Source: Phorcus lineatus (lineage: Eukaryota; Mollusca; Gastropoda; Trochida; Trochidae). Taken from it: a stretch of 64,000 nt of DNA. Positions 12,029-64,000 of this stretch are shown here, piece after piece; within the stretch, counting starts at the first letter, position 1, and each line of letters begins with the position of its first letter. The position numbers and the translations under genes are program-made. Below the pieces are notes generated by a model, which saw only the letters and a program-made list of their open reading frames with translations, made no database searches and was not told the origin of the DNA. The stretch is from assembly GCA_921293015.1 (NCBI GenBank), contig OV121081.1, forward strand, positions 63,381,022-63,445,021, given 5' to 3'.

Positions 12029-15000
12029 CTAACTGATGAAAATGGAGCGTCTGTAGTACTTGAGTTCCTCTATGCTTTCCTTGATGTCGTCAAGAGCCCT
12101 GCAACATTTGAATTATAATGTCAGTTCAACAATCAGACAAATTGTTTTCAAATTTTTTTTATATATTTTTATTCCTGTTATCTTACATCTTGATACATCA
12201 TATTAGGCATATAGCCTATAGTATTATAGATGACAGGTGTTTTCTAGAAAGTACATAAGAAAATACAAAAAAAAGAAAATTAAAAATAAGAAATTTCATT
12301 CACTCACTTAAACATACTCATTCATTCCTTATTGTGTAACTACTCCATAACAAGTTTTAAATACATTGCCCATTTTTCCACAAATTCATCAAACTTAGAC
12401 TTATTCCAGTATCTGATTTTTTCTATATAGTAATAATACTTTAATTCTTTCTTAAAAAGTGACAATTTTGGTTTTATCTTCCTCAACTTACATTTATAAA
12501 TATAATATTTTGCTAAAAGTAAAATGAGATCAAAAGTATCATCTGTATAAAAAGTGGGAGAACACCCAAAAAGAATCAAATCACTTTGTAAATTTATGAT
12601 ACCTGTGTGAACACAGTTCACTTTCAGCCATTTTGAGAAATCTTGCCAAAAAGTATTAGTTGCTCTACAATGCCAGAAGAGATGAACTATAGATTCAGGT
12701 GTTGCTCCACAGAAAGTACAGAGATTATTTTCAACAATATTCATTTTAATCAAATGAGTTTTTACAGGCAAAATTCTGTGAAGCAGTTTGATTTGCAACC
12801 ATCTTAGTTTCGGATCTGAAGTAGTCTTGAAAGGCTTAATAAACACTTTAGGCCAATTAATATTAATCAAAATTTCCTCTTCCCATTTTTCAATTAACTT
12901 TAGTTTTTCCTTATTCTCAGTTAAACGAAAATAGTAGCTTTTTTATCCTTTTTTATAAGATAGAAGATTTCTAATACATAAACATGTACTATTTTCTAAT
13001 ACAGCTTCAGGTGTTTCTTGTATGTCAAGTGTTTTTCTGTATTTATTAACTGTTTTTAAAAATTCCATGAAATTCAAGAAAATTTATCTTGAAAAAAGCA
13101 TGAGAAAACTGTTCAAGACAAACAATCAGACAAATTCCCTTTTAGCTTTAAATCCATGGCCTTTGACTCTGTAGACCATCAAGCTAAGATAGGGACCTGA
13201 AGATTTATATTTCAATAACAACTATCAAATGGTTCTCCGGACATCACTCAATTCCTTGCCTTAACTTGAACGTAATCAGCCAAAGTAAATCAACAAAACA
13301 GATTTTTCCATTGTATGAAAACAAGATGCATTACTCTCAGTTTTCATCATAAGCTTATCATGAAAGAAATGAATTCAAATGATACATTTACAAGTCATTA
13401 CAAATAATTCTAACTGGTAACACAGCACTATTGAAGCTATCAAGTTAAACTTAAGATCAGTGCATCAACTGTGTTATCTTACTCCCTTTTGATAGACTAG
13501 TACTGCAAGCTCATTAACATGATCCACCGATAGCTTGATGCATCTACAAACACTACGAGTAAACTTACCTGTGACACAATTTCTTTCTTGGTGCTTCCTC
13601 ATACTGCTTTGGAAACCATCGTCTGTGGAGAAGAAAAGTTAGTATACGAATGTACAATATAAGAGAAGAAAACAGTTGAGCATTGGAGAAATTGAAGCCG
13701 GACCAGGCCAAATACTAATGGCAACTTCCAGGGGGATTCCCATCTGCAACAGGATATAATCCAACCAGCAGAAACCCGAAAGAATGCTTGCTCTTTTTTC
13801 ACTTTTCATGAGATATCGAGAATCTCACCCAGTGTCCTCTGATATCCAATATATCAACACGAGATGATAAAAGTTTTCAGAAGACATTTATACTTGAATT
13901 GACGAGTGTTGATGTTTGATATCAAAGTCATAGGAGTGTGATTCTCTTTAGTAACGAGAATCATCATTAAATACATTTCACTGAAAAAAGGACAACTCTG
14001 GAGGCATTACTTCACCTAGACTAGCAATTCAGTTATGTCATAGCATTGTGAGTTCATGTTGGTGACAGCATAGCATTGTGACGTCATTACTTGATTATGT
14101 ACAACAAATATGAAGTTATAAAATTTACCGGTAAGACGGCAGCTTATTGTTCAAAATCTACCATCAAAAGAACATCTCATGCCAAACTCAGTTTTGGATG
14201 TTTAATGTACATCTGTGAGTACTGTACTGACATTACCCTTTCAATATGCTTATGCAATAGAATTGTCACTTCTCATGTCTATGAAGTTTATTTTTATGTC
14301 TTGTTGTTGGAAATGAGAGCTTTGTTCAATTCTTTTATGTGGAAAATAATTTTGATGATACAGATTTTTCCCTTGTCACAAAATATCTGGGTAAGCAAGA
14401 ATAGGATGAAGTATCTGAGCACCCGCTAACCTGCAAATCTCCTTGAGAGTGCTGACATCCACGATCCTGTAGTGCAGATGTTTGGTGAGGCGGGGCATGT
14501 ACTTGTTGAGGAACATGCGGTCGGCGTGGACAGAGTTGCCGGCCAGCGGACACACCCCATGGGGAGTGTATGTTGACAAAAAACCCAGGACCTGTGATTC
14601 TGCACTCATTAGATCCGTCTTGCTTTGCCGTACTGCTTCTGTTAGGCCTGACTGTAATCAAACAGGGAAAAGTGAAGAAGTGACACAGCTAATATATAAC
14701 ATTGTTAAGACAGAAAGCACACAATATCATTACCTAGCCCAGTCGCTGATTGGCTGGAGTGCAAAGATTACCTAAACCGACCCTTATGTAACAGTACTCA
14801 GATTAGAAATACACCAAAATACAAGTGATAGGTTTCCACTGATTTCAATGAGATTGATGAATGATTATATCATTGCAGTCAGTATTATCACAGCGAGAAA
14901 GCCTGTGATACTATTTTAATGAAAAATAACCAGTGTCAACTAAAACAGATGAAGCTATGGAAGAATTATGCAGGTATAGTGAAACGTTCAAACGAACTAA

Positions 15001-16553
15001 ATGCAGATTTCTAAACAGGAGATCAAACATAATCTTATCAATGTACAAAAGGTAAAATTTTAACTTGCATGTCCTACCCTTTTCTCAGAATATTTTTCAC
15101 TGGCTGATATGAAGTGACCAAAACAAAATTATCTCTTATAGATAGTAACTAGATGTAATGCCATTAGTTTATTAACATGTAATATCAAGCTTCACACTCA
15201 CTCTTCCATGATGTTCCTTGCACCAGTCGTTCATGTTGTCCAGGACCGAGTTGGGCTGATGAATCACTAGGTTTGGACCCTGGAAACAAACATCATAATG
15301 ATGAATCACTAGGTTTGGACCCTGGAAACAAACATCATAATGATGAATCAAGACAACTCTTTCTTTCTCCTGACAGCAATATGCTCTTTATATTTTCTTA
15401 TTAGTGGAGAGTTCTCTGACAGGTGACACTTTCAAACACAAAATAGAGCCATTGGCTCTGCAGCTTGGTGGAATTTTCATGATTTCTATTTCAGTTTACA
15501 CAATTTTGTACCAACAATAGAATTTTAGGTATTTAAGTATTTCTTACACATAGGACAGTTAGTATTTTGGTAAATTTGATAAACCTCTTTCTAAATTCAT
15601 GGTGAGACACAGGCTATGTTTGTACAGGAGGGAACCTATGTTTAAGGTAAGACCCTATTCACCAAACTCAGAAGAAATATCTAACTGTATATTTATAACC
15701 AAAAAATTAGAGAAATTTCGGAAAAATATTTACAGCAGATACAGAGACAAATATTGGTTGATAGTGTTAAGTAGTTCATTTAACTAATATACACGTTGAT
15801 ATGACACATGATTTCAAATTCTTACTAAAGCCAAAAACATATCATAACACATTCTGTGTATGTGTCACTTTGATCATTTTGGGCAAAGGCGGTTCGAAGT
15901 AGAAAGTTACATACCTCTGCTATAACACTGAGATCTGCATCAGTCACTAGACATGCTATCTCGATAATATGATCTGTTTCTATGTCTAAACCAGTCATCT
16001 GCAAAAGAAAACAAAGTATTTCTTTACTCTAGTCTGTGAATCAATGTTTACATCTCGTTACTCAGCTCGTTACTGGTTCAAAACATGTTCTCTTGTTTAT
16101 AGTCACTTGAACAACAGGAAATAGATCTAGACAGTTAGTTGTAAGAAAAAATATAATATCAAAAGTGTCTGCATATAATATAAATGTAAGAGAAATTTTA
16201 GATTTACATACAGACTCGAGTTGAGTAATAATTAACATAATTGCTTTGAGTCAAAATTAAGATAACATTAAGAGATATCAAGATGTAATAAAAAAACTTT
16301 GGAATTTTATCCAAACAAAAACATGAAAATAACAAAATAAGACGTTTAATGTTAATGACAGCAGTTTCACCATCAGCATCAATTAGGCTGCTGAATTAAT
16401 TCAAAGTAAAACGAATGTGGCAACCTCCAAATCCACCCAAATCATTCGGTTTCTGTCTGTAGAAAAATTCCTTCCATTGTTTATGTAATTCATTCTTTTC
16501 AAATCTGTGAGTAATGTCCTGCGACAATATCGGACAATTTGTGAAAACAGCAT
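12029..16553 (-). CDS. REXO2: Oligoribonuclease / RNA exonuclease 2, complete, six exons
   Basis: 3'-5' exoribonuclease that clears 2-5-nt RNAs in mitochondria and cytosol (known for the family). Exons (minus): 16425-16553, 15915-15998, 15202-15279, 14431-14651, 13569-13622, 12029-12098; all phases agree; 211 residues plus TAG. DEDDh residues by eye: Asp41 and Glu43 (IWVDLE), Asp141 ([10 protein letters not shown]), His188 and Asp193 (HRALDD). Family blocks [30 protein letters not shown] are clear. The start at 16553 gives a 36-residue leader [15 protein letters not shown]... ending RNFST, a good mitochondrial presequence; Met37 just before IWVDLE could start a cytosolic form. The first donor, gttgcc, is weak. 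The C-terminus (YYRRSIFIS) is shorter than the human lysine-rich tail. Intron 5 contains a LINE. Confidence 0.93.
12128..12143. repeat. LINE target-site duplication, 3' side
   Basis: AACAATCAGACAAATT, identical to 13121-13136. Confidence 0.88.
12144..13120 (-). mobile_element. 5'-truncated L1-like LINE in REXO2 intron 5
   Basis: A 977-bp insertion on the same strand as REXO2. Its open frame ends at 12340 and reads back to about 13068 with a single TAA at 12943-12945; one frame change near 13055 joins it to [12 protein letters not shown]. The product is the C-terminal end of an L1-clade ORF2: basic RT-distal region, then the zinc-binding knuckle [18 protein letters not shown] (C-x2-C-x8-H-x4-C). 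The 3' end is A-rich (T run near 12150 on the plus strand). Both ends touch the 16-bp direct repeat AACAATCAGACAAATT (12128-12143, 13121-13136), a target-site duplication. Truncated and carrying breaks, so not able to move by itself. Confidence 0.88.
13121..13136. repeat. LINE target-site duplication, 5' side
   Basis: AACAATCAGACAAATT, identical to 12128-12143. Confidence 0.88.
13812..13862 (-). repeat. Second copy of the dispersed repeat at 7263-7315
   Basis: Reverse complement reads GTGTTGATATATTGGATATC then AGAGGACACTGGGTGAGATT, matching 7263-7315. It lies in REXO2 intron 4. Confidence 0.55.
15202..15279 (-). CDS. REXO2: REXO2 exon 3, with a duplicated upstream acceptor
   Basis: Encodes [20 protein letters not shown] and HHGR, matching the human WCKEHHGK block. 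The first bases of the exon and the acceptor TGTTTGTTTCCAG lie in a 42-bp tandem duplication, so a second identical acceptor opens at 15321 and would add 14 codons in frame. Confidence 0.88.
15257..15350. repeat. REXO2: 42-bp tandem duplication across a REXO2 intron/exon border
   Basis: Two exact copies (15257-15298, 15299-15340) plus 10 bases of a third. Each full copy contains the reverse complement of the splice acceptor and of the first codons of exon 3. Confidence 0.95.
16425..16553 (-). CDS. REXO2: REXO2 exon 1: mitochondrial presequence plus first catalytic motif
   Basis: 43 codons. The reading frame differs from the longer overlapping open frame on the same strand, and was chosen because it runs into IWVDLE and joins exon 2 (MTGLDIE) without a shift. 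The leader has Arg at 8, 11, 12, 20 and 28, and Lys 19, with one acidic residue (Asp17) and hydrophobics between, then N-F-S-T, as expected for matrix targeting. Confidence 0.85.
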
Positions 16554-18710: not shown

Positions 18711-19405
18711 GCGTTATTGATTACATTAACCTATTCCCAGAAATTATCAACCTACGTTATTGATTACATTAACCTATTTCCAGAAATTATCAACCTGCGT
18801 TATTGATTACTTTAACCTATTTCAAGAAATGATCAACCTGCGTTATTGATTACATATAATATTAACCCATTTCCAGAAATGATCAACCTGCGTTATTGAT
18901 TACATTAGCATATTCCCAGAAATGATCAACCTGCGTTATTAATAACATAAACCCATTTCCAGAAATGATCAACCTGCGTTATTGATTACATTAGCATATT
19001 CCCAGAAATGATCAACCTGCGTTATTAATAACATAAACCCATTTCCAGAAATGATCAACCTGCGTTATTGATTACATTAGCCTATTTCCAGAAATGATCA
19101 ACCTACGTCATTGATTACATTAGCCTATTCCCAGAAATGATCAACCTGCGCTATTGATTACATTAGCCTATTCCCAGAAATGATCAACCTGCGTTATTGA
19201 TTACATTCACCTATTCCCAGAAATGATCAACCTGCGTTATTGATTACATTAACCGATTCCCAGAAATGATCAACCTGCGTTATTGATTACATTAACCTAT
19301 TCCCAGAAATGATCAACCTGCGTTATTGATTACATTAGCCTATTTCCAGAAATGATCAACCTGCGTTATTGATTATATTAGCCTATTCCCAGAAATGATC
19401 AACCT
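18711..19405. repeat. Tandem array, 43-bp unit, about 16 copies
   Basis: Unit contains GTTATTGATTACATTA, then A/G-CCTATT, CCCAGAAATGATCAACCTGC. Copies differ at a few positions and one is expanded by several bases near 18850. No unique spacers, so not CRISPR. Confidence 0.95.
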
Positions 19406-34700: not shown

Positions 34701-37700
34701 TGGCAAGACATTACCAAATACCAAAAGTTTCCGTGACATGTTCAGCATTAGGTATCGACAAGAGTAAAGCTCATTTAACTACAACCTCTTGACATTGACA
34801 GAAGATCAATGACCCAGATTTTATTGCTAGATTCATCAATAGTGTGCAAGTACTAACAAGGCAATGGTTGAAATTAGATCAGATAGCAAGAATGGCAAGC
34901 AATTTCAATATTTTTCAAGTTTCTATTTCCTCCAGTATTCTTAACTCTTACGTTGCTGAATATTATTTTGACCACTTTTGCCCCCGTGGCTGAATTTTCC
35001 AGCACTCGCCTCGCTACAACATATGGCGTGTTTACATGGCGAATTATGGACATTATCGTCGTTTTATACAAAGCTAGTCGGCGAATCCCGTGTTACAAAT
35101 GGATGACACTTACTTGACACTTTGAATGAAATTTCTATCACCCCTGGAACGGTTTCTACAACTGAAGTAAACTTGTTTTCAATTCGGGCGCCGTAACTCA
35201 ATAAATTTCAAGAGCTCATGCGCGAAATCAAAACGAAACTAAAGATGAATAGTTCCTCTTCACATCGATATAAAAATTATTTTTATAATATGTTTAGAAC
35301 GAATTTTACAAAAAATTTTAAAATTGTCTTCATTTCAAACATTATAAAATCATTTAATCACTGAGTGCACACATGCAAATTATATACAGAATTGAAGCTA
35401 ATTTTTTGCTCTATATTTCACGATAAATTTTATTACGATACGCCATCCTAAACGAAAGATATAAATTACGAAAACAGGGTAGTGATAAATCCTGATAACG
35501 TTCTGACCCCCACAGTAATATTACTAAGCTAATAGCCCCGGGCAAACGCACGCGCTCAGCGCGTGCAGGCGGGGTATCCCCGTTGAAACATACACTCACA
35601 CACAATATAAATTGTCTTTATTTCCAACTTCATAAATCATGTTATTCGCTTTGTATACATGCAAATTATATATGGAATTGAAGGCAATTTATTCTTCTTT
35701 ACGAAGAAATAAATCATAACAATCTTATGCACTGTAATTAGAAGTTATTACCAACGAAACGTGGGTATAGCTAGTAATAAAGTCTTTGATAATCGCCTTA
35801 CCGCAACATATGTCGCATCGTTTCCACACGTTTTATTTTGATGCAAATATGGGCAAATTACACATGAAAATGAAGGTATTTCTTTCTGCTTTACGATGAT
35901 ATGAAAATAATAAATATGTACCACTTGGTTTGGAATATATAAAGTTTGCAAAGATGGTACCCTCGGGTGTTTTAGAACAGATTTTGATAATTGCGACATC
36001 ACTAACCGCTCCTTTATTGTCTAATTGTAATTTGCAAATTTTATATAGAATTGAAGACGATCCTTTCCTCTTTATTGTGATATAAAAATGTCGATAATGC
36101 GCTCTGCCGTTAAATGGATAGGAAGTGTAAAAAGCAGTTGAAAATAAATCGCTTCTCGGTAAACAAAATATGAATAGAGAAATTGCCTGTTTGTGCGATG
36201 CGCGCCGGGTCCTTTCTGATTTTCTTGTACATACCAATTTTACATGGCAATAAAGATTATCCTTTTCTCTATATTTTGATATATGAAATTGCAAAATTTA
36301 CCGAGAAGTTTATGTGATATAAAGTGAGAGAAAATGGTAAAAACGTAAAGAATAAACAAAAGTCACAATTTTGCGGAACTTGCTGTATCTTTATTCTATA
36401 TGGTGTATATACATTTTTTTTATATCAAATCGAAGACAATTATTCCTTCTTTATCACGATGTAATCGATTTCAAAATACGCCTAGCTGTTGAGAAGATAT
36501 GAGCGAAAGAAAGGCACATGTCAAAATCGCCGTTCAGTTTACATGATTTGAATCGAGAAATTAGCTTTTTGTGCGGCGCTTGCTGTGTCTTTATTTATTA
36601 TCGCGCATGTACACATTTTACATGGAAAGAAAGACAATCTTTCTCTCTGTCTTATGATATAAAAATTGTCAAAATACGTTGAACACATCATATAAAAATT
36701 GGTGTGACAAAATGGTGTAAAACTAAAAATATGTAAAAATCACCTTTTTTGCGGCACATGCTGTATCTTCAATTCAGGTAGCGTAGTTACGTATTTTATA
36801 TTGAATTGAAGACAATTTTCTGCTCTTTCAAATGATCCAACCGGTATTGAAATTTGCCCAAGGGTTCAGAGCATAGGGCGTGCGATATAAGGTTGTGCGT
36901 TTGGTGTGAGTGCAGGCTTGTAAGCAAACGATAGCACGCGCGGGACGGTAAGCTCGTGCGAGCGGGGAGAAAGTGCCCACAGGCTATTAGCACGTGCGGC
37001 GGGGAGTGGGGGAAAATTGAGTGATTTTAACGCTTATTTTCGGTACGATAAACGGTATCAATGTTTGCATAATTTTCGGGACATGTACGCGCATTATTTA
37101 GAACACCAACGAAACAAAATTCGGTAGCTTAGCGACAGACGGACGGAAAGTACTAGCGTTGAACTGACACTACTGCCGTGCAACAATTGCCCGTCCTTCG
37201 CTACTGTGAACCTCGGCGTTAATGAGCTAGCGTGAGAAAAATAGAGTTTGGATGTCGCATCTCGCCCAGAGGACATGCGGTCAAAGCAAATTTCAACCCG
37301 GACAGGCCCGGGACCCGCATCTTAAGGGTTAATTCAATTCATGGTAGTGATACCTTGGTATTATTAATGGCGCAACTCCTATTCCTCATGGGTTTATAGA
37401 CGGCCAGCAGAGTATGCCTTGGTATCATTAATGTCGCAACTCCTATTCCTCATGGGTTTATAGACGGCCAGCAGAGTATGCCTTGGTATCATTAATGTCG
37501 CAACTCCTATTCCTCATGGGTTTATAGACGGCCAGCAGAGTATGCCTTGGTATCATTAATGGCGCAACTCCTATTCATCATGGGTTTATAGACGGCCAGC
37601 AGAGTATGCCTTGGTATCATTAATGTAGCAACTCCTATTCCTAATGGGTTTATAGACGGCCAGCAGAGTATGCTTTGGTATCATTAATGTCGCAACTCCT

Positions 37701-40700
37701 ATTCCTCATGGGTTTATAGACGGCCAGCAGAGTATGCCAGGATTACAGTCATGTTGGTCTTGAAAAACTTTGGTAAATAATGTGTCAAAACAATGGAGGG
37801 CTTGTCATATTTTGAAAATAACCCATACAAGCCCCATTAACAGAAAACTTCTGAGATGATTAACTGTTTGATAGACAGATTTGCATGTAAAATAAGTAGT
37901 ATCATCAGTCATCATCTTTGTTGAATTTGTTGATCGGATGTCGCCATTGTTTGATTGCTCTTGGTTAGAAAGTTTATCCTCGACACCAAATGTAGTATAT
38001 CACCCCCCTTTTACACATGACACATCATCTCCTAAAATCACACACTTCTTTCATTACACAGAGAGTACTGCAGGTCAGTCTAACAGGTTCCAATATGGCT
38101 GCTGTTTGACGTCACATAGCACCTGCTTGAATTCATAGTCCTAGTAAAATAATCTCTAATCTGGCCCTGTGGCCAGCTCTGCACATAAATAGTCTCAAAC
38201 CATGAAATTATGATATGAATACTAGTATATTATAAAAGAAAACCAGCTCTCACCTTGGGGAACCTGCTCTCCTCGTCCAGGAGCGCCAACAAACCCATGG
38301 GCCGCACCAGGAACATGTCCTGTAACACATCATAGATCTAACGTATAGAAACTTGTTCAATATAATTTTTGCTGATTTGACTCATTTAGAAAAAAAATAA
38401 CCATTATTTTCAGATGACATTATAAAGGGAGTCTCGTAGATGATTATGATAACATGACAGTCCCTGATTTTAACTTTGGCAGTGATTTTTTAAATAGACA
38501 AACAGGAGCAAAATATCAAGACAAATTTAATTTTTATTTTATTACACTCAAGTTGTTGAGCAGAACTCACGAGAAGCGGCTTGTTGTCTACAAACTTGAT
38601 CTCCTTCCAGTCGATGCCTTCCTTCATGTACTCCTCCTGTTCCATCTTGAAGATGTGCTGCAATATCAACATCATTGTCAACATCTCCAGCATCATCAAC
38701 ATCATTGTCAACATCACCCGCATCATCAACATCATTGTCAACATCTCTCGCATCATCAACATCATTCTCAACATCTCCAGCACCATCAACATCATTGTCA
38801 ACATCACCCGCATCATCAACATCATTGTCAACATCAACATTATTGTCAACATCACCAACAACATTATCAGCAAAGCATCATCAACCACAGCATTGTCAAC
38901 ATCACAATCATTATCAACATAATCAACAACATTATCAACATCAGTATCATCACTAACATCATTTTCAACACCAACTACATCATTGTAAACATCATCAACA
39001 TCTTAAAGATCATATTATAAGTAACATCATCAATACCACTGGGCAACATTTGTATCATTATACATGGCCAGGGTCATGACTTGCACTGATTTGTACCAAA
39101 ACATTCTGAACAGTGTATCTTGCAACATTGTCAGCATTACTTGCAACATTGTCAGCATTACTTGCAACACTTTCAACAATTTTAGTAAAGAGATGGTAAA
39201 AAATGCAACATTGATATAGACATATTGAACACTGTTATCAAAATATGCAACAATGTGTATTACATTTGCTATAATGTCTGCATTTTCCACAACATCATTA
39301 AAGACATGCCTGTAGCAAGTGGGGGGGCTGGGGCTCGGCCCCCTCACTAATTTTAGGGAAAAAACCCACTTTTTTTGCTCTTTATTTCAATGTTTGTATG
39401 AAAAAAGAGAATATTATAAGTTTCATGAGGCATCTGACCCTTTTCTGCAGATTGAGAAAAAAACTGTATTTGGTCTTACCGACGTTGTAAGCGGGTGTTT
39501 TTCTTAAATAAATAATCTGTCATGACCTATAAAGTATATAACCCTACCTCCCCCCTCCCTGAGCTAGCAAATCCCTAATTTCAGCCCCCCCCACTCTCGA
39601 AATTGGTGCTATTCAATGCAACATCTACAATATCAAGAACATCTCATCTACACAGTGTTTATCAACAAAGGCACATTTATTTGTAGTTCTTCCATTACCA
39701 CCAAACCAAGTGAGGCACAATAAACTGACCTCATTGAAGAAAAACTGCAGCTGTTCGTTGGCCAGGTTGATGCAGGCTTGTTCAAAACTGTTCTTCTCAA
39801 AGTGCTCAAACCCAAATATGTCTAGGATTCCTGCAATGATGAATTGATCATTTTTCTGTTTAGAATAATTAACCCTTTGTCTGCTTATTGCAAAATCATC
39901 AATCATTCATGGAACAGAATAAAGTGGTTCATGTATAAACTGTAAAATCATCTGTTATTAAAAGGTTCATATGAATAATGCAATAATTTGCACCATCTAC
40001 TACTAATACGCTGAGACCATTTCTAATCTTCAGAAAAAAACCAAATCGTTAAAAAAACAATAAACAAGGAGAAAGCCCCCGGGCTCCAGATAGGCAACAA
40101 TAAAATTTTTTAGTAAAGCTATAAGAATTATAAAGTATCAAAAGTGAAGTTTGCTTCATGCATCATCTAAGTCTTGTACGGACATTCATGAATTGTTAAA
40201 TCCTAAACAGAGTGTCTAAAAAGAACCAACAATTACAGTAACCGCTAACAATAAGCAACGGAAACCAATATTTTACCATTGTTGTTAGGCTGCTCTCTTT
40301 GCTTAGTCACCTTCAGACATGTGGAGCTGGACCGTGGTTGTTCAGGAAAAAGTTATGGCATACCTTAATGCTGTGTACTGACATTGTACTTGAAAGTGAG
40401 TGAAATCTTGGTTCCCATAGATCTATACATGAGCTCACCTATTTCTGTCAACTCGTCAGAAGGAATATCATTCTCCGGGGCCAGCAGACAGTTGATCTTG
40501 TTTACGATCCATCCAAACAAACGTCCATAGATTGCCTTCGCCATAGCGTCCCGGGCATCTGATTCAATATGAATTATTTGGGTAACATGATTTACACTCT
40601 TGAAGACCTCTGATAAAATTTTAATATAGAATTGTAGAATATAGAATTCTAATATTACATTTTATTCAAAATACATAACATTATCTATGGCAACATTTTG

Positions 40701-46700: not shown

Positions 46701-49700
46701 ACAGTATGATTTTAAAAAAAGGTCATCAGCTTTTAAGGCAAATTGATTTTGTTGGGACAAAAACTGTAGAGATAAATAGAGGATACTAAACGACCTTCAA
46801 TTTAATATTTTTTCTATTAAACGAGTTAATGATTAAGTAAAAAAGTGTGTTCATACCAAATCATTTATGAGATTAATAAAAATAGTATTAAAATGAAGGA
46901 AGTTTAGTATTCTGTTTATTACTTGACCTCAGTAATCAAGCATGATTGCCGAAAGTGTACTGAACGAAAAATTTCTGCAACTTGGCTGCCATTGTGATGG
47001 TGGTGCCAACATTGTGACGTCACAACAACACAGTATAATGACGTCATACGTGCAGCCGTATTACACTAGTTTGATATCACCGTATGAATATCACACTGCA
47101 GAATCTTACACGGGCAAGTAATAATCATGTTCGTCAAGTAATACTATCAACACACATCAAACTAAAATCCTCAAAGTTTTTGAAATCAACATTTTCTTAA
47201 ATATTACTTAAATCAAATTTTTAAAAATAGTAAAGAACAAAGATTCCCCTAAAAAAAGTTATTTTGAAACTGCTTAGCTGCAAGATCCCTTTAGTTTTCC
47301 ATCGAGTGATCAGGAAAAATTTAAATGAAGTTAGGAAATCCTTAATGTTTTCATAGAAAAGATTATATCCTAAAGACAAAATTTTGAATAAATCACTTTT
47401 ACACTTTGTTTAATGTGATAACACAACTCTTATTTCAAGGTTCAATTTTTCTTGTAAATGTCATTTTCCTTATCAGATGAAGTTTTCAAATTGCATACTT
47501 GTAAAATGATGTTTATTTTATCATTAATATAAGAAAAAAAAAAGTTTTCCATCTGATTAAGTGTAAGTACAAAAACGTGTTTATACATAATCAATACCAC
47601 ATTTCTTACTCTAAATAATTCATCTGCATATCTCCTAAACTCATTTATTATAAACCATGAGTTCACTTTATTTCATCAACTTGTAAGATTTAATTTGAAG
47701 TGTCTAATGAATATTTTGAATGTATCACCTGCTTATTTTACAAGCTGTCAGTGTACCAGAAGGACAAAAATTGAACTGTAACATACTTTTAACTGACATT
47801 ATATTTCATGCACTCAAATCAAACAAGTAATGGCATCATACAGTAATATAAAGAACAAACAAAGAACCAAATAAAGAGCCAAACAAAGAACCAAACAAAG
47901 AACCAAATAAAGAACCAAACAAAGAACCAAATAAAGAAACAATTAAAGAACCAAATAAAGAACCAAATAAAGAAACAATTAAAGAACAAAATAAAGAACC
48001 AAATAAAGAACCAAATAAAGAAACAATTAAAGAACCAAATAAAGAACCAAATAAAGAAACAATTAAAGAAACAAATAAAGAAACAAATAAAGAAACAATT
48101 AAAGAAACAAATAAAGAAACAATTAAAGAACCAAATAAAGAACCAAATAAAGAAACAATTAAAGAAACAAATAAAGAAACAAATAAAGAAACAATTAAAG
48201 AACCAAATAAAGAACCAAATAAAGAACCAAATAAAGAAACAAATAAAGAAACAATTAAAGAAACAAATAAAGAAACAAATAAAGAAACAAATAAAGAAAC
48301 AAATCGTAATTCATAGGATCATGGCTGAATCCATAAAAAGGATTTTTTTTAAGTATTCAAGATCAATATATCACTGAAAGCATCAATTAAAGGATAGGAT
48401 TCACATCAGTTTTATTGTTTTGAAAACAAAATGTTTAACACAACATTGGCAAAAAGTTTCTCACAGCTCTTACATCAGAGATGCAATGTTCATGCAACAA
48501 CATATGAATCAAGTATTATTAGAATAAAATATATCATGATTGAAGTGTTATTAGAATAAAATACATCATGATTGAAATATTATTAGAATAAAATACATCA
48601 TGAATGAAGTATTATAAGAATAAAATACATCATGATTGAAGTATTATTAGAATAAAATATATCATGATTGAAGTATTATTAGAATAAAATATATCATGAT
48701 TCAAGTATTATTAGAATAAAATACATCATGATCGAAGTATTATTAGAATAAAATACATCATGATAGAAGTATTATTAGAATAAAATATATCATAATCGAA
48801 GTATTATTAGAATAAAATACATCATGATCGAAGTATTATTAGAATAAAATATATCATGATCGAAGTATTATTAGAATAAAATATATCATGATTGAAGTAT
48901 TATTAGAATAAAATATATCATAATCAAAGTATTATTAGAATAAAATACATCATGATCGAAGTATTATTAGAATAAAATATATCATGATCGAAGTATTATT
49001 AGATTAAAACAAATCATGATTCAAGTATTTCAGTGTAGTGACAAATCTTTTTATATTATATGTTTATGATGAATCTTTCATACAAATTCATCATCACTGT
49101 AGTATATCTCACTGATAAATCCCACAATACGGTCCGGCCAATCAGCAGACAGCAAGGCAAACGACTGAAGATGACATATATATTAAGGTAGTATCAGGTA
49201 ACTAAAGCTTCACGCTAGATTACAGTCTTAAACCTATCAAGATACTCTGACCTGGTGGTTGTTGCACAAAACTGCCACAAGGTACGAGGTAATTAGGAAT
49301 AACATAGAATAAGTGAAAATATTAACGCTCTACTTGCTCTTTTCTCATCAAGAGTGCTTTTCGCATTTAGTGTTTTTAATAAACTAACAAAATGTAATTG
49401 TTATGGACAGATGTAAAAAAAATTATTTTGAAGTGTGTTTTCTTTCTTTACCAACTTGAACGAGGAAGTCTGAAATCCCACAATACAGAGCTAGATCCAG
49501 TTACAGCAGCCCTTTTGTTAAGCATCAGGGTCTACACGACATCGAGAGACAAAGAGCATGATACGTACTTCTCTATACATAAATTGTTCACATTGGTGAT
49601 AAAAAACAAATACTTTAAGAAAGGCATTATTTTTTCGTAAACTTTTGTTAATGTAACATTATTCTATTTTGGATCACTTTTCTGTAATAGTACAGATTCT

Positions 49701-61753: not shown

Positions 61754-62707
61754 TCAGGTGACCCTCCATGTCCTCGGAAGCTCCAGGACGGTTTTGATGG
61801 TTGTATCCACACCGTCGGGATAAACATGGATGTTGCCATCGTCGAAACCGATGTAGATGGTTTTGGACGTGTCCGTACACAAACTGAAGGGCTCACAGCT
61901 GTCGTCTTCCATCTGGATCACCGGTCCGAAACACCAACCATTTGTCGCGAAACTGAACACACATTTCTTCAGTCGGTCCACAAGAAAGATAACCTCGTTC
62001 TCGCTGCAAGCCACAGCTACAGGATCTTCCAAAAAGTTGTCTCCCTTATGAGGCTGGTGCCGCCATATGAGGTCACCTTTCTGCGAGATACACGTTAGAG
62101 AATGCATTGAGTGGTCAGACACCAGGATGTCTCCTAGTGGAGTCGAACACAGGAACGTTGGTGTCATGAACATCCTGTTGTCGTATTTGTCGTGCACGAA
62201 GGATTTGAGAACATGGCCACTCATATCTATAATGTCTACCGACCCCGGCTCCTCCCTGTGGGTCCCCACAACCAAGCAGTGTCGGACCCTCGGTAAGGAT
62301 GTAACTCCAATATACATCTTTCTTGTCTTGATGACGTCCGTTACATTCATATCTCTAACTGACAATATTTTAATTTCTCTCGAAAGTGGAAGTGTAACAG
62401 CAAGGGAATCATTGTCAACTTTGCACAATCTGTAAGGCAAGCCTTCAACTGGTACCTCGCGATTTCTGGAGGGGGAGAAAAATTTAATGACTTTGTTAGT
62501 GTAGTCCGCTACGACGAGTGTGTTCCCATTATGCCGTGTAATGATGGCGATATCCGTTGGGAAGGGAGACCACTCCTTGAGGCTGATTCTAGACGAGGAC
62601 ACTCTAAGCAATGACCTGCGGGAAGATGAAGAACTCGACTCTGTGGAACGACGTCTGTAGGACAACGTGGTAACCTCGGAGCGCCTCTTAACCGCCTTGT
62701 TTCCCAT
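61754..62707 (-). CDS. Single-exon NHL / beta-propeller protein, TRIM-NHL-like without RING
   Basis: 317 residues, uninterrupted. N-terminal 50 residues are basic and serine-rich (MGNKAVKRRSEV, SSSSSRRSLLR). From about residue 50 come repeated propeller blades: GNTLVVADYTNKVIKFFS, DSLAVTLPLSREIKILSV, VDIIDMSGHVLKSFVH, GDILVSDHSMHSLTCISQKG, NEVIFLVDRLKKCVFSF and KTIYIGFDDGNIHVY. This is the pattern of the C-terminal propeller of mollusc TRIM-like proteins, where it binds protein or RNA; there is no RING, B-box or coiled coil. Start chosen because a TATA box lies about 32 bases upstream; Gly2 follows Met but position 6 is Val, so myristoylation is doubtful. Exact ligand unknown. Confidence 0.82.
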   Translation of the reverse strand: MGNKAVKRRSEVTTLSYRRRSTESSSSSSRRSLLRVSSSRISLKEWSPFPTDIAIITRHNGNTLVVADYTNKVIKFFSPSRNREVPVEGLPYRLCKVDNDSLAVTLPLSREIKILSVRDMNVTDVIKTRKMYIGVTSLPRVRHCLVVGTHREEPGSVDIIDMSGHVLKSFVHDKYDNRMFMTPTFLCSTPLGDILVSDHSMHSLTCISQKGDLIWRHQPHKGDNFLEDPVAVACSENEVIFLVDRLKKCVFSFATNGWCFGPVIQMEDDSCEPFSLCTDTSKTIYIGFDDGNIHVYPDGVDTTIKTVLELPRTWRVT

Positions 62708-62738
62708 GTCACAACAACCGAACTTCCTTCCACTAACC

Positions 62739-62746
62739 CTTATATA
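62739..62746 (-). promoter_or_regulatory. TATA box TATATAAG of the NHL gene
   Basis: Reverse complement of 62739-62746 reads TATATAAG, 32 bases before the ATG at 62707; a start site near 62715 would leave an almost leaderless mRNA. Confidence 0.6.
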
Positions 62747-62749
62747 CAG

Positions 62750-64000
62750 GTTTCTTGTTGCTTGTCAGATTGCTTCACTGTTTCTAAAGCTCATTGCAGT
62801 AATAGTCATTTATGATTTGACGCAAATGAAGCGTATTGGTAAGACGACACCGTTGCCAAAACAGAGAACAGGGAAGCCTTGGGTGGTAGGGTTTGCATGT
62901 TGTCAGCAATGTGTTAATTCGACGTATAGGTCGTGACTGTCTCAATGCACAGATAATGACTGGCACTGTGCAGCCCCTTGTGTTTTATCAGCTAACCTAT
63001 GTATATCTATATATACCTACACACGTGTCTACTTCCTGATTGATATGGGCACCCGGCTTTGTTCATGTCAATATATACGTACACTAGATTCGATAAGTAC
63101 ATGAAGTAAAAGCTTAGAAAAAATTCCCGGTTCCTGGTTTACCTTCTTTGATATCGTTCTGCTTTCTGAGGTATACATATGGTCACATGGACAGAAAGGC
63201 CACTCACGAAACTTTCCTTTTAACGCCGTGTATCATTACAGGGCATTCTTGACATTCACCGTAAATCATATCACACTAAGTCGCTGCTGTCTGTTAATCA
63301 GTCCACACTATGATTAAAAAAATAATTGCGAGGGGCAAACGAGGTTATAAAAAAGTTTGTTTAGGGTTGGGTTGGGGGATAAGATGACTTTGTGTCTTCT
63401 ATTTACATATACTACTTTAGACGTTTCTTTGTGCGATTTATTAACCGTTGATCATTACAGGAATCTTAAATTAAATTCTGAAGTGTTCTCAAGCATGACT
63501 GAGAAGTCGTGGTGTCGTGTAGTCTCCAGTTCTGATCTCTCCCTGGTAGAACGATACGCATTGAGGAGAACGTGTGCTGGGCTTTACTGATATGTTTGTT
63601 TCGTGTTATCTTTATGTCACATGTTACCCTTTATAAGCGATAATATATCTCATAAGACAAAGAAACCATAAGTGTACACTTTTTATTTTGACTGTACAAA
63701 GGGTGAACCTACAGCTATACCTTCCCCATATATCGGCCACTGCTACTAATTTTAGTAAAATTAGTTAATAATCAGTTTACTAGAAATTATTAACTTTTTG
63801 GCTACATTCATTACTACTAAATTTTGCGTTTGCCTTAATGATAAAGATTTTTTCAGTGAAATCACAGCAACAACCATGGGTCACCCGCTGTAAAATAACA
63901 TCGCAACGATCATACGTTACCCGAAAAAATCATCCTAAACAATCTTAGTTCAAATGACACGGGTTTCACATTTCCATAAGAAAGACGACATCTTCCTAGA
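62750..64000. other. Upstream of the NHL gene, nothing recognised
   Basis: Only short frames without family motifs and no clear repeat. The end of the window is AT-rich. Confidence 0.5.

Follow-up and report, generated by a model that had tools for sequence, protein, structure and literature searches.

In the 64,000-nt stretch of Phorcus lineatus DNA analysed here (the window), a short tandem duplication has doubled the complete 3′ splice site of REXO2 intron 2 along with the codons that open exon 3. The two complete acceptors lie 42 nt apart, and we propose that they compete for one donor at 15915, giving rise both to the normal protein and to a form longer by 14 residues. Taken as a whole, this account, in which the duplication is a near-neutral or mildly harmful variant, is one towards which we lean slightly. 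The repeat is as follows:

Positions 15257 to 15350, minus strand: perfect 42-bp tandem duplication, a 94-nt periodic tract of 2.24 copies spanning the intron 2/exon 3 border.

The minus strand of the window contains a complete REXO2 gene with six coding exons:

Positions 16425 to 16553, minus strand: exon 1 from the ATG, with a presumed mitochondrial leader; donor GAG/gttgcc.
Positions 15915 to 15998, minus strand: exon 2; donor GAG/gtatgt, phase 0 end at 15915.
Positions 15202 to 15279, minus strand: canonical exon 3 of 78 nt; donor AGA/gtgagt, gap-free in the alignment with solved REXO2 chains.
Positions 14431 to 14651, minus strand: exon 4, from the spliced product, the solved-chain alignment and the whole-assembly protein search.
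Positions 13569 to 13622, minus strand: exon 5, from the spliced product and the whole-assembly protein search.
Positions 12029 to 12098, minus strand: exon 6, ending at the stop codon, from the spliced product and the whole-assembly protein search.

The 211-residue product matches the Pfam RNase_T domain (PF00929) over the entire profile (1-164 of 164; 133.1 bits, 1.8e-38, against a curated cut-off of 24 bits) and the NCBIfam oligoribonuclease model NF003765 with 263.3 bits (9.3e-79; curated cut-off 106 bits). The best solved mitochondrial oligoribonuclease/RNA exonuclease 2 chains match it at 3.3e-83 and 4.3e-83, and its residues 35-209 align without a gap to residues 8-182 of solved REXO2. 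The segments VDLEMTGL, HADRMFL, CHRALDD, DWCKEHH and LHYR align to the solved enzyme, with the D, E, D, H and D that we take to be catalytic all present, as are the stacking Leu, Trp and Tyr. The matched chains are presumably human, which is consistent with PMC6521605. In the part of that paper drawn on here, the substrate-stacking residues of human REXO2 are Leu53, Trp96 and Tyr164, which were located in the solved chain of 237 residues by shifting the numbering by 6. On domain and residues, the identification of the gene as REXO2/oligoribonuclease (DEDDh) holds for the predicted protein. When the REXO2 protein was searched against the entire 957.8-Mb assembly (74 contigs), 8 candidates were scored and the 6 matches were the six exons described above; the matches all convert to the gene's own exons, and this search found no second REXO2 locus that could supply the normal form. 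Donors usually conform to GTRAGT, which the exon 1 donor GAG/gttgcc (16425/16424) fits poorly; splicing of exon 1 to exon 2 may be inefficient, or another donor may be taken. In intron 5, a 200-codon open stretch (12340-12942, minus strand) matches zf-RVT (PF13966, E 1.5e-8); a non-LTR retrotransposon-like element within REXO2 probably has its tail here. Elsewhere in the window, a 336-codon open frame at 61757-62764 (minus strand) has an NHL repeat match (E 1.5e-5) and is, we presume, possibly a TRIM/NHL-like gene.

TRF describes 15257-15350 as a repeat of period 42 with 2.2 copies and a 100% match and, together with a repeat search, bears out the exact 42-bp tandem duplication of the original prediction. 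The two full 42-nt copies (15257-15298 and 15299-15340) are 100% identical, and a 10-nt unit occurs three times at a spacing of 42. The tract therefore measures 94 nt and not 84 nt, the third, partial copy TGATTCATCA occupying 15266-15257 of exon 3 proper and coding there for part of V-I-H-Q. The repeat carries both the acceptor and the first codons of exon 3, as had been claimed: TGTTTGTTTCCAG precedes both 15321 and 15279 on the minus strand. This is not a chance similarity, because the 29-nt intron piece, searched across the assembly with up to 3 mismatches, gave 2 matches, both of them here, against 0 for a reversed-pattern control. A 200-bp query found a single place in the 957.8-Mb assembly. 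A mobile element or dispersed repeat was rejected, given that the 29-nt piece has no further copies in the assembly at up to 3 mismatches, and Rfam at gathering score gave 0 matches across the window.

Judged by sequence, either copy could be the newer one. The array would probably have arisen by replication slippage, or by microhomology joining, between two TGATTCATCA repeats; if a single event made it, the ancestor would have had TGATTCATCA twice at a distance of 42 nt, once at the end of the intron and once in the exon. At least 10 nt were shared by chance in 14 of 5000 base-shuffled comparisons (129 nt of intron end with 60 nt of exon start). Though uncommon, an ancestral match of this kind is just what slippage or microhomology joining would exploit. 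With 0 differences at 42 sites, the 95% upper bound on the age of the copies is ~18, 7 or 4 million years at assumed rates of 2e-9, 5e-9 or 1e-8, respectively. Because bounds compatible with zero differences reach 4 to 18 million years, the notion of something just being born, in the sense of a very recent event, finds no support.

The acceptor region can be divided as follows:

Positions 15322 to 15350, minus strand: upstream 29-nt intron end with TTGAT (A at 15348), TTCAT (A at 15344), a pyrimidine-rich stretch and CAG; AG1 at 15323-15322.
Positions 15280 to 15308, minus strand: downstream 29-nt intron end with TTCAT (A at 15302), a pyrimidine-rich stretch and CAG; AG2 at 15281-15280.
Positions 15280 to 15321, minus strand: the 42 nt gained by exon 3 via AG1, 14 residues in frame.

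The branch-point consensus is yTnAy, and by motif match the TTGAT and TTCAT elements are putative branch points. AG1 and AG2 share the same context over 52 nt (-29 to +23, comprising 29 nt of intron and 23 nt of exon), in agreement with the earlier statement that both acceptors have the same pyrimidine tract. Since the sequence there is identical, acceptor scoring limited to this interval cannot separate the two sites; what sets them apart is their order, the wider context and how far each lies from the donor. In each copy the A of TTCAT lies 22 nt from its own AG with 0 intervening AGs, and the first copy only has an additional yTnAy match, TTGAT, 26 nt from AG1. The AG-free run measures 33 nt before AG1 and 27 nt before AG2, and 2 AGs intervene between the first branch-like motifs and AG2. 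The pyrimidine tract is interrupted by purines, and TTCAT and TTGAT are weak fits to the branch motif; a more convincing candidate, CTAAT with its A at 15401, sits 79 nt before AG1, and 8 AGs intervene. The anatomy is that of an alternative (tandem) 3′ splice site, with one donor, two AGs that each have a tract and a branch-like motif, and the frame kept.

The birth of a new alternative exon, as originally envisaged, did not hold up. GT-AG spans between the acceptors are only 41, 30, 12 and 8 nt, with poor donors, and to our knowledge animal introns are rarely as short as 41 nt or less. A new exon or a new intron within the duplication was rejected on account of these short spans and the lack of a usable donor, and the duplication could thus yield an alternative 3′ splice site, by which exon 3 would be extended. 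In the predicted RNA fold the copies pair with each other and AG1 lies in a loop. Such pairing is trivial, because CATCATTATGATG is a near-palindrome, and a regulatory RNA hairpin was rejected at z scores of only -0.84 for 176 nt (40 of 200 shuffles as good) and -1.74 for 72 nt (15 of 200).

What are the implications of the upstream acceptor for the protein? Joining the donor at 15915 to 15279 gives a 211-residue protein and joining it to 15321 one of 225 residues; the spliced translations confirm the prediction of 14 additional in-frame residues without a stop. The multiple-of-three length is uninformative, because simulated acceptor-spanning duplications at the REXO2 site are in frame and open in 403 of 1225 cases, close to the third that length by itself predicts, and a special in-frame design was rejected on the same count. 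From the 211- to the 225-residue form, the RNase_T score falls from 133.1 to 122.6 bits and that of NF003765 from 263.3 to 258 bits. The longer form also scores lower against each of the 24 distinct solved sequences listed, several of which are variants of one protein (281.6 to 261.3, for example). Insertions or deletions between query residues 60 and 90 occur in 0 of 80 bacterial Orn homologues, the best 80 of 121 prokaryote-genome relatives, all of which cover the insert region; the eukaryotic comparison comprises solved chains only. From beta2 to the Trp helix, the 211-residue form has the length of its relatives and the 225-residue form is 14 residues too long.

In the AlphaFold2 model of one of the 80 Orn homologues (L022; mean pLDDT 95.6, input alignment of 28 of the 80 loci), strand beta3 comprises residues 32-40 and a helix residues 45-49. 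The REXO2 exon junction falls at E35/G36 of this model, inside beta3, and residues 41-44 link the strand to the helix. As the insert is a repeat, the first GPNLVIH could complete beta3, and 14 residues would loop out between the strand and the next helix. Folding of the putative 225-residue product is plausible on this model, and the approach to the active site may be changed. An effect on activity is plausible too, because the substrate-stacking Trp (Trp96 of human REXO2, in the cited part of PMC6521605) is close by. The 80 of 80 homologues without extra residues suggest that the long form would be impaired, and selection would then favour AG2 if the allele were fixed.

How would the transcript be spliced? 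A lariat on the first branch point would lead to AG1, the first AG after it, and to the 225-residue protein. A lariat on the second branch point, which would sit within otherwise exonic sequence when AG1 is used, would lead to AG2 and the normal 211-residue protein. In the passages drawn on here, the first AG downstream of the branch point is described as preferred (PMC1431707; PMC7317903, which speaks of a strong preference); on this footing AG2 would require the branch point of the second copy, and the upstream acceptor would be its natural competitor because a complete module comes first. Our expectation is that both products are made and that AG1 accounts for a substantial share, because the upstream AG comes with its own branch-like motif and tract, which would be impossible for a single-base change. 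An RNA fold hiding AG1 in a loop could favour AG2 and counts against competition, although the predicted fold barely beats shuffles. Rather than an adaptive isoform, the duplication most likely represents a variant, of the individual or of the species, whose effect is nearly neutral or mildly harmful.

The original prediction had offered a choice between two isoforms and a neutral duplication that the spliceosome ignores. The sequence upholds the former insofar as the acceptors appear able to compete and the 14-residue product is in frame; the latter is, in our judgement, the less likely half, because the upstream copy has full signals and comes first in the scanning direction. Were the duplication ignored, AG2 would be used almost exclusively, through downstream exon signals or because pairing hides AG1, and the extra 42 nt would simply join intron 2. 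We regard this as unlikely, albeit a real contender. The absence of any insertion or deletion at this place in all 80 bacterial homologues, the higher scores of 24 of the 24 listed distinct solved sequences with the 211-residue form and the predicted pairing of copy to copy all argue for it, but the RNA fold is not significant, and AG1 equals AG2 over -29 to +23 and precedes it.

Almost exclusive use of AG1, with the 14-residue form as the enzyme itself or the allele as a loss of function that is recessive and, in this individual, heterozygous, seems quite unlikely to us. The intact second branch-like motif and tract imply that AG2 should not be dead, and the 80 of 80 homologues without a length change weigh against this outcome as well. 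It draws some strength from the first-AG rule (PMC1431707) and the precedent of snapdragon FAR (PMC7261849), within the cited parts of both papers, from a repeat register that would leave beta3 whole, and from an NCBIfam oligoribonuclease score that falls only from 263.3 to 258 bits. That the 225-residue protein is the main form, with the duplication fixed, AG1 the main acceptor, the beta3-to-helix segment duplicated and access to the dinucleotide pocket altered, we consider very unlikely. It is hardly credible that the second copy was produced during assembly, by consensus building or the merging of haplotypes: the exact identity of the copies would fit an assembly error, but the 957.8 Mb are resolved at chromosome scale (74 contigs, including four of 62 to 79 Mb), other short exact tandem tracts are present in it, and ordinary reads are longer than the 94-nt tract.

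How unusual is a duplication of this kind? In 194 kb (the window and 13 stretches of 10 kb, a small sample, with tracts reducible to a shorter period dropped), 30 exact tracts of period 12-200 were found, 24 in the window and 6 outside. Most of the 24 fall in arrays also listed by TRF (minisatellites), and among the 6 at most two look isolated and short: L011 (93 bp, 2.02 copies) and L010 (20 bp, 2.6 copies). Our guess for the genome, built on this tiny sample and an assumed intron number, is of the order of 10,000 such duplications, with tens spanning an acceptor. The window is rich in minisatellite arrays by TRF, for example at 37353-37738 (64 bp x 6) and 48504-49029 (32 bp x 16), and a 43-bp minisatellite of 16 copies (18711-19405) lies just upstream of REXO2. 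A 12-bp repeat array of 38 copies at 47848-48304 is open for >150 codons in two frames per strand and probably represents low-complexity sequence rather than a gene. With its doubled 3′ splice site in a gene found once in the assembly, the REXO2 case belongs to a known mutation class and looks fairly ordinary. If both acceptors are used, as our preferred account of competing sites would have it, REXO2 provides a clean natural test of first-AG scanning: AG1 and AG2 are identical over 52 nt, differ only in order and wider context and reside in a gene that is single-copy in the assembly, and junction counts would reveal the weight of position, apart from sequence, in 3′ splice site choice. Otherwise it is a short tandem duplication that probably has many counterparts in a genome rich in repeats.

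The 211-residue product resembles human REXO2, to which its residues 35-209 align gap-free, whereas the putative 225-residue form differs from bacterial Orn, with the 14-residue insert in 0 of 80 homologues. BRCA1 c.671-395_2287dup, as described in the part of PMC11839443 drawn on here, is like the REXO2 repeat a tandem duplication across an intron/exon border, covering 395 intron and 1617 exon bases of intron 9/exon 10; its cDNA retained the duplicated intron part, in a non-quantitative assay, altered allele only. Unlike the REXO2 case, it is 2012 bp long, frameshifting and from a cancer patient. In potato, an intron/exon-border duplication gave a new intron that uses a cryptic donor, following the Rogers model (PMC4974935, in the part cited); gain of this type is unavailable in REXO2, because the GT spans between the AGs are only 41, 30, 12 and 8 nt. 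In the NF1 data of PMC7317903, as far as drawn upon, 49 single-base variants upstream of -3 created an AG in the AG exclusion zone. The new AG was used in 25 of the 49, skipping or cryptic sites resulted in 17, and 7 combined new-AG use with skipping; an added AG is thus not always taken, since it was used alone in only 25 of 49. AG-clade MADS genes share with REXO2 an acceptor duplication, a competing AG, an in-frame insertion and a conserved protein, according to the part of PMC7261849 cited here: in snapdragon FAR a CAG is duplicated and seemingly the new one alone is used, and in rice OsMADS3 a TAG is duplicated (TAGTAG) and both are used. Acceptor use in the MADS genes is known from RNA, while the REXO2 acceptors are known here from genomic sequence. 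The MADS duplications comprise 3 nt and add one residue, against 42 nt and 14 residues in REXO2. Because only 3 nt are duplicated, the two MADS AGs must depend on one and the same branch point and tract, whereas each REXO2 AG would have a set of its own.
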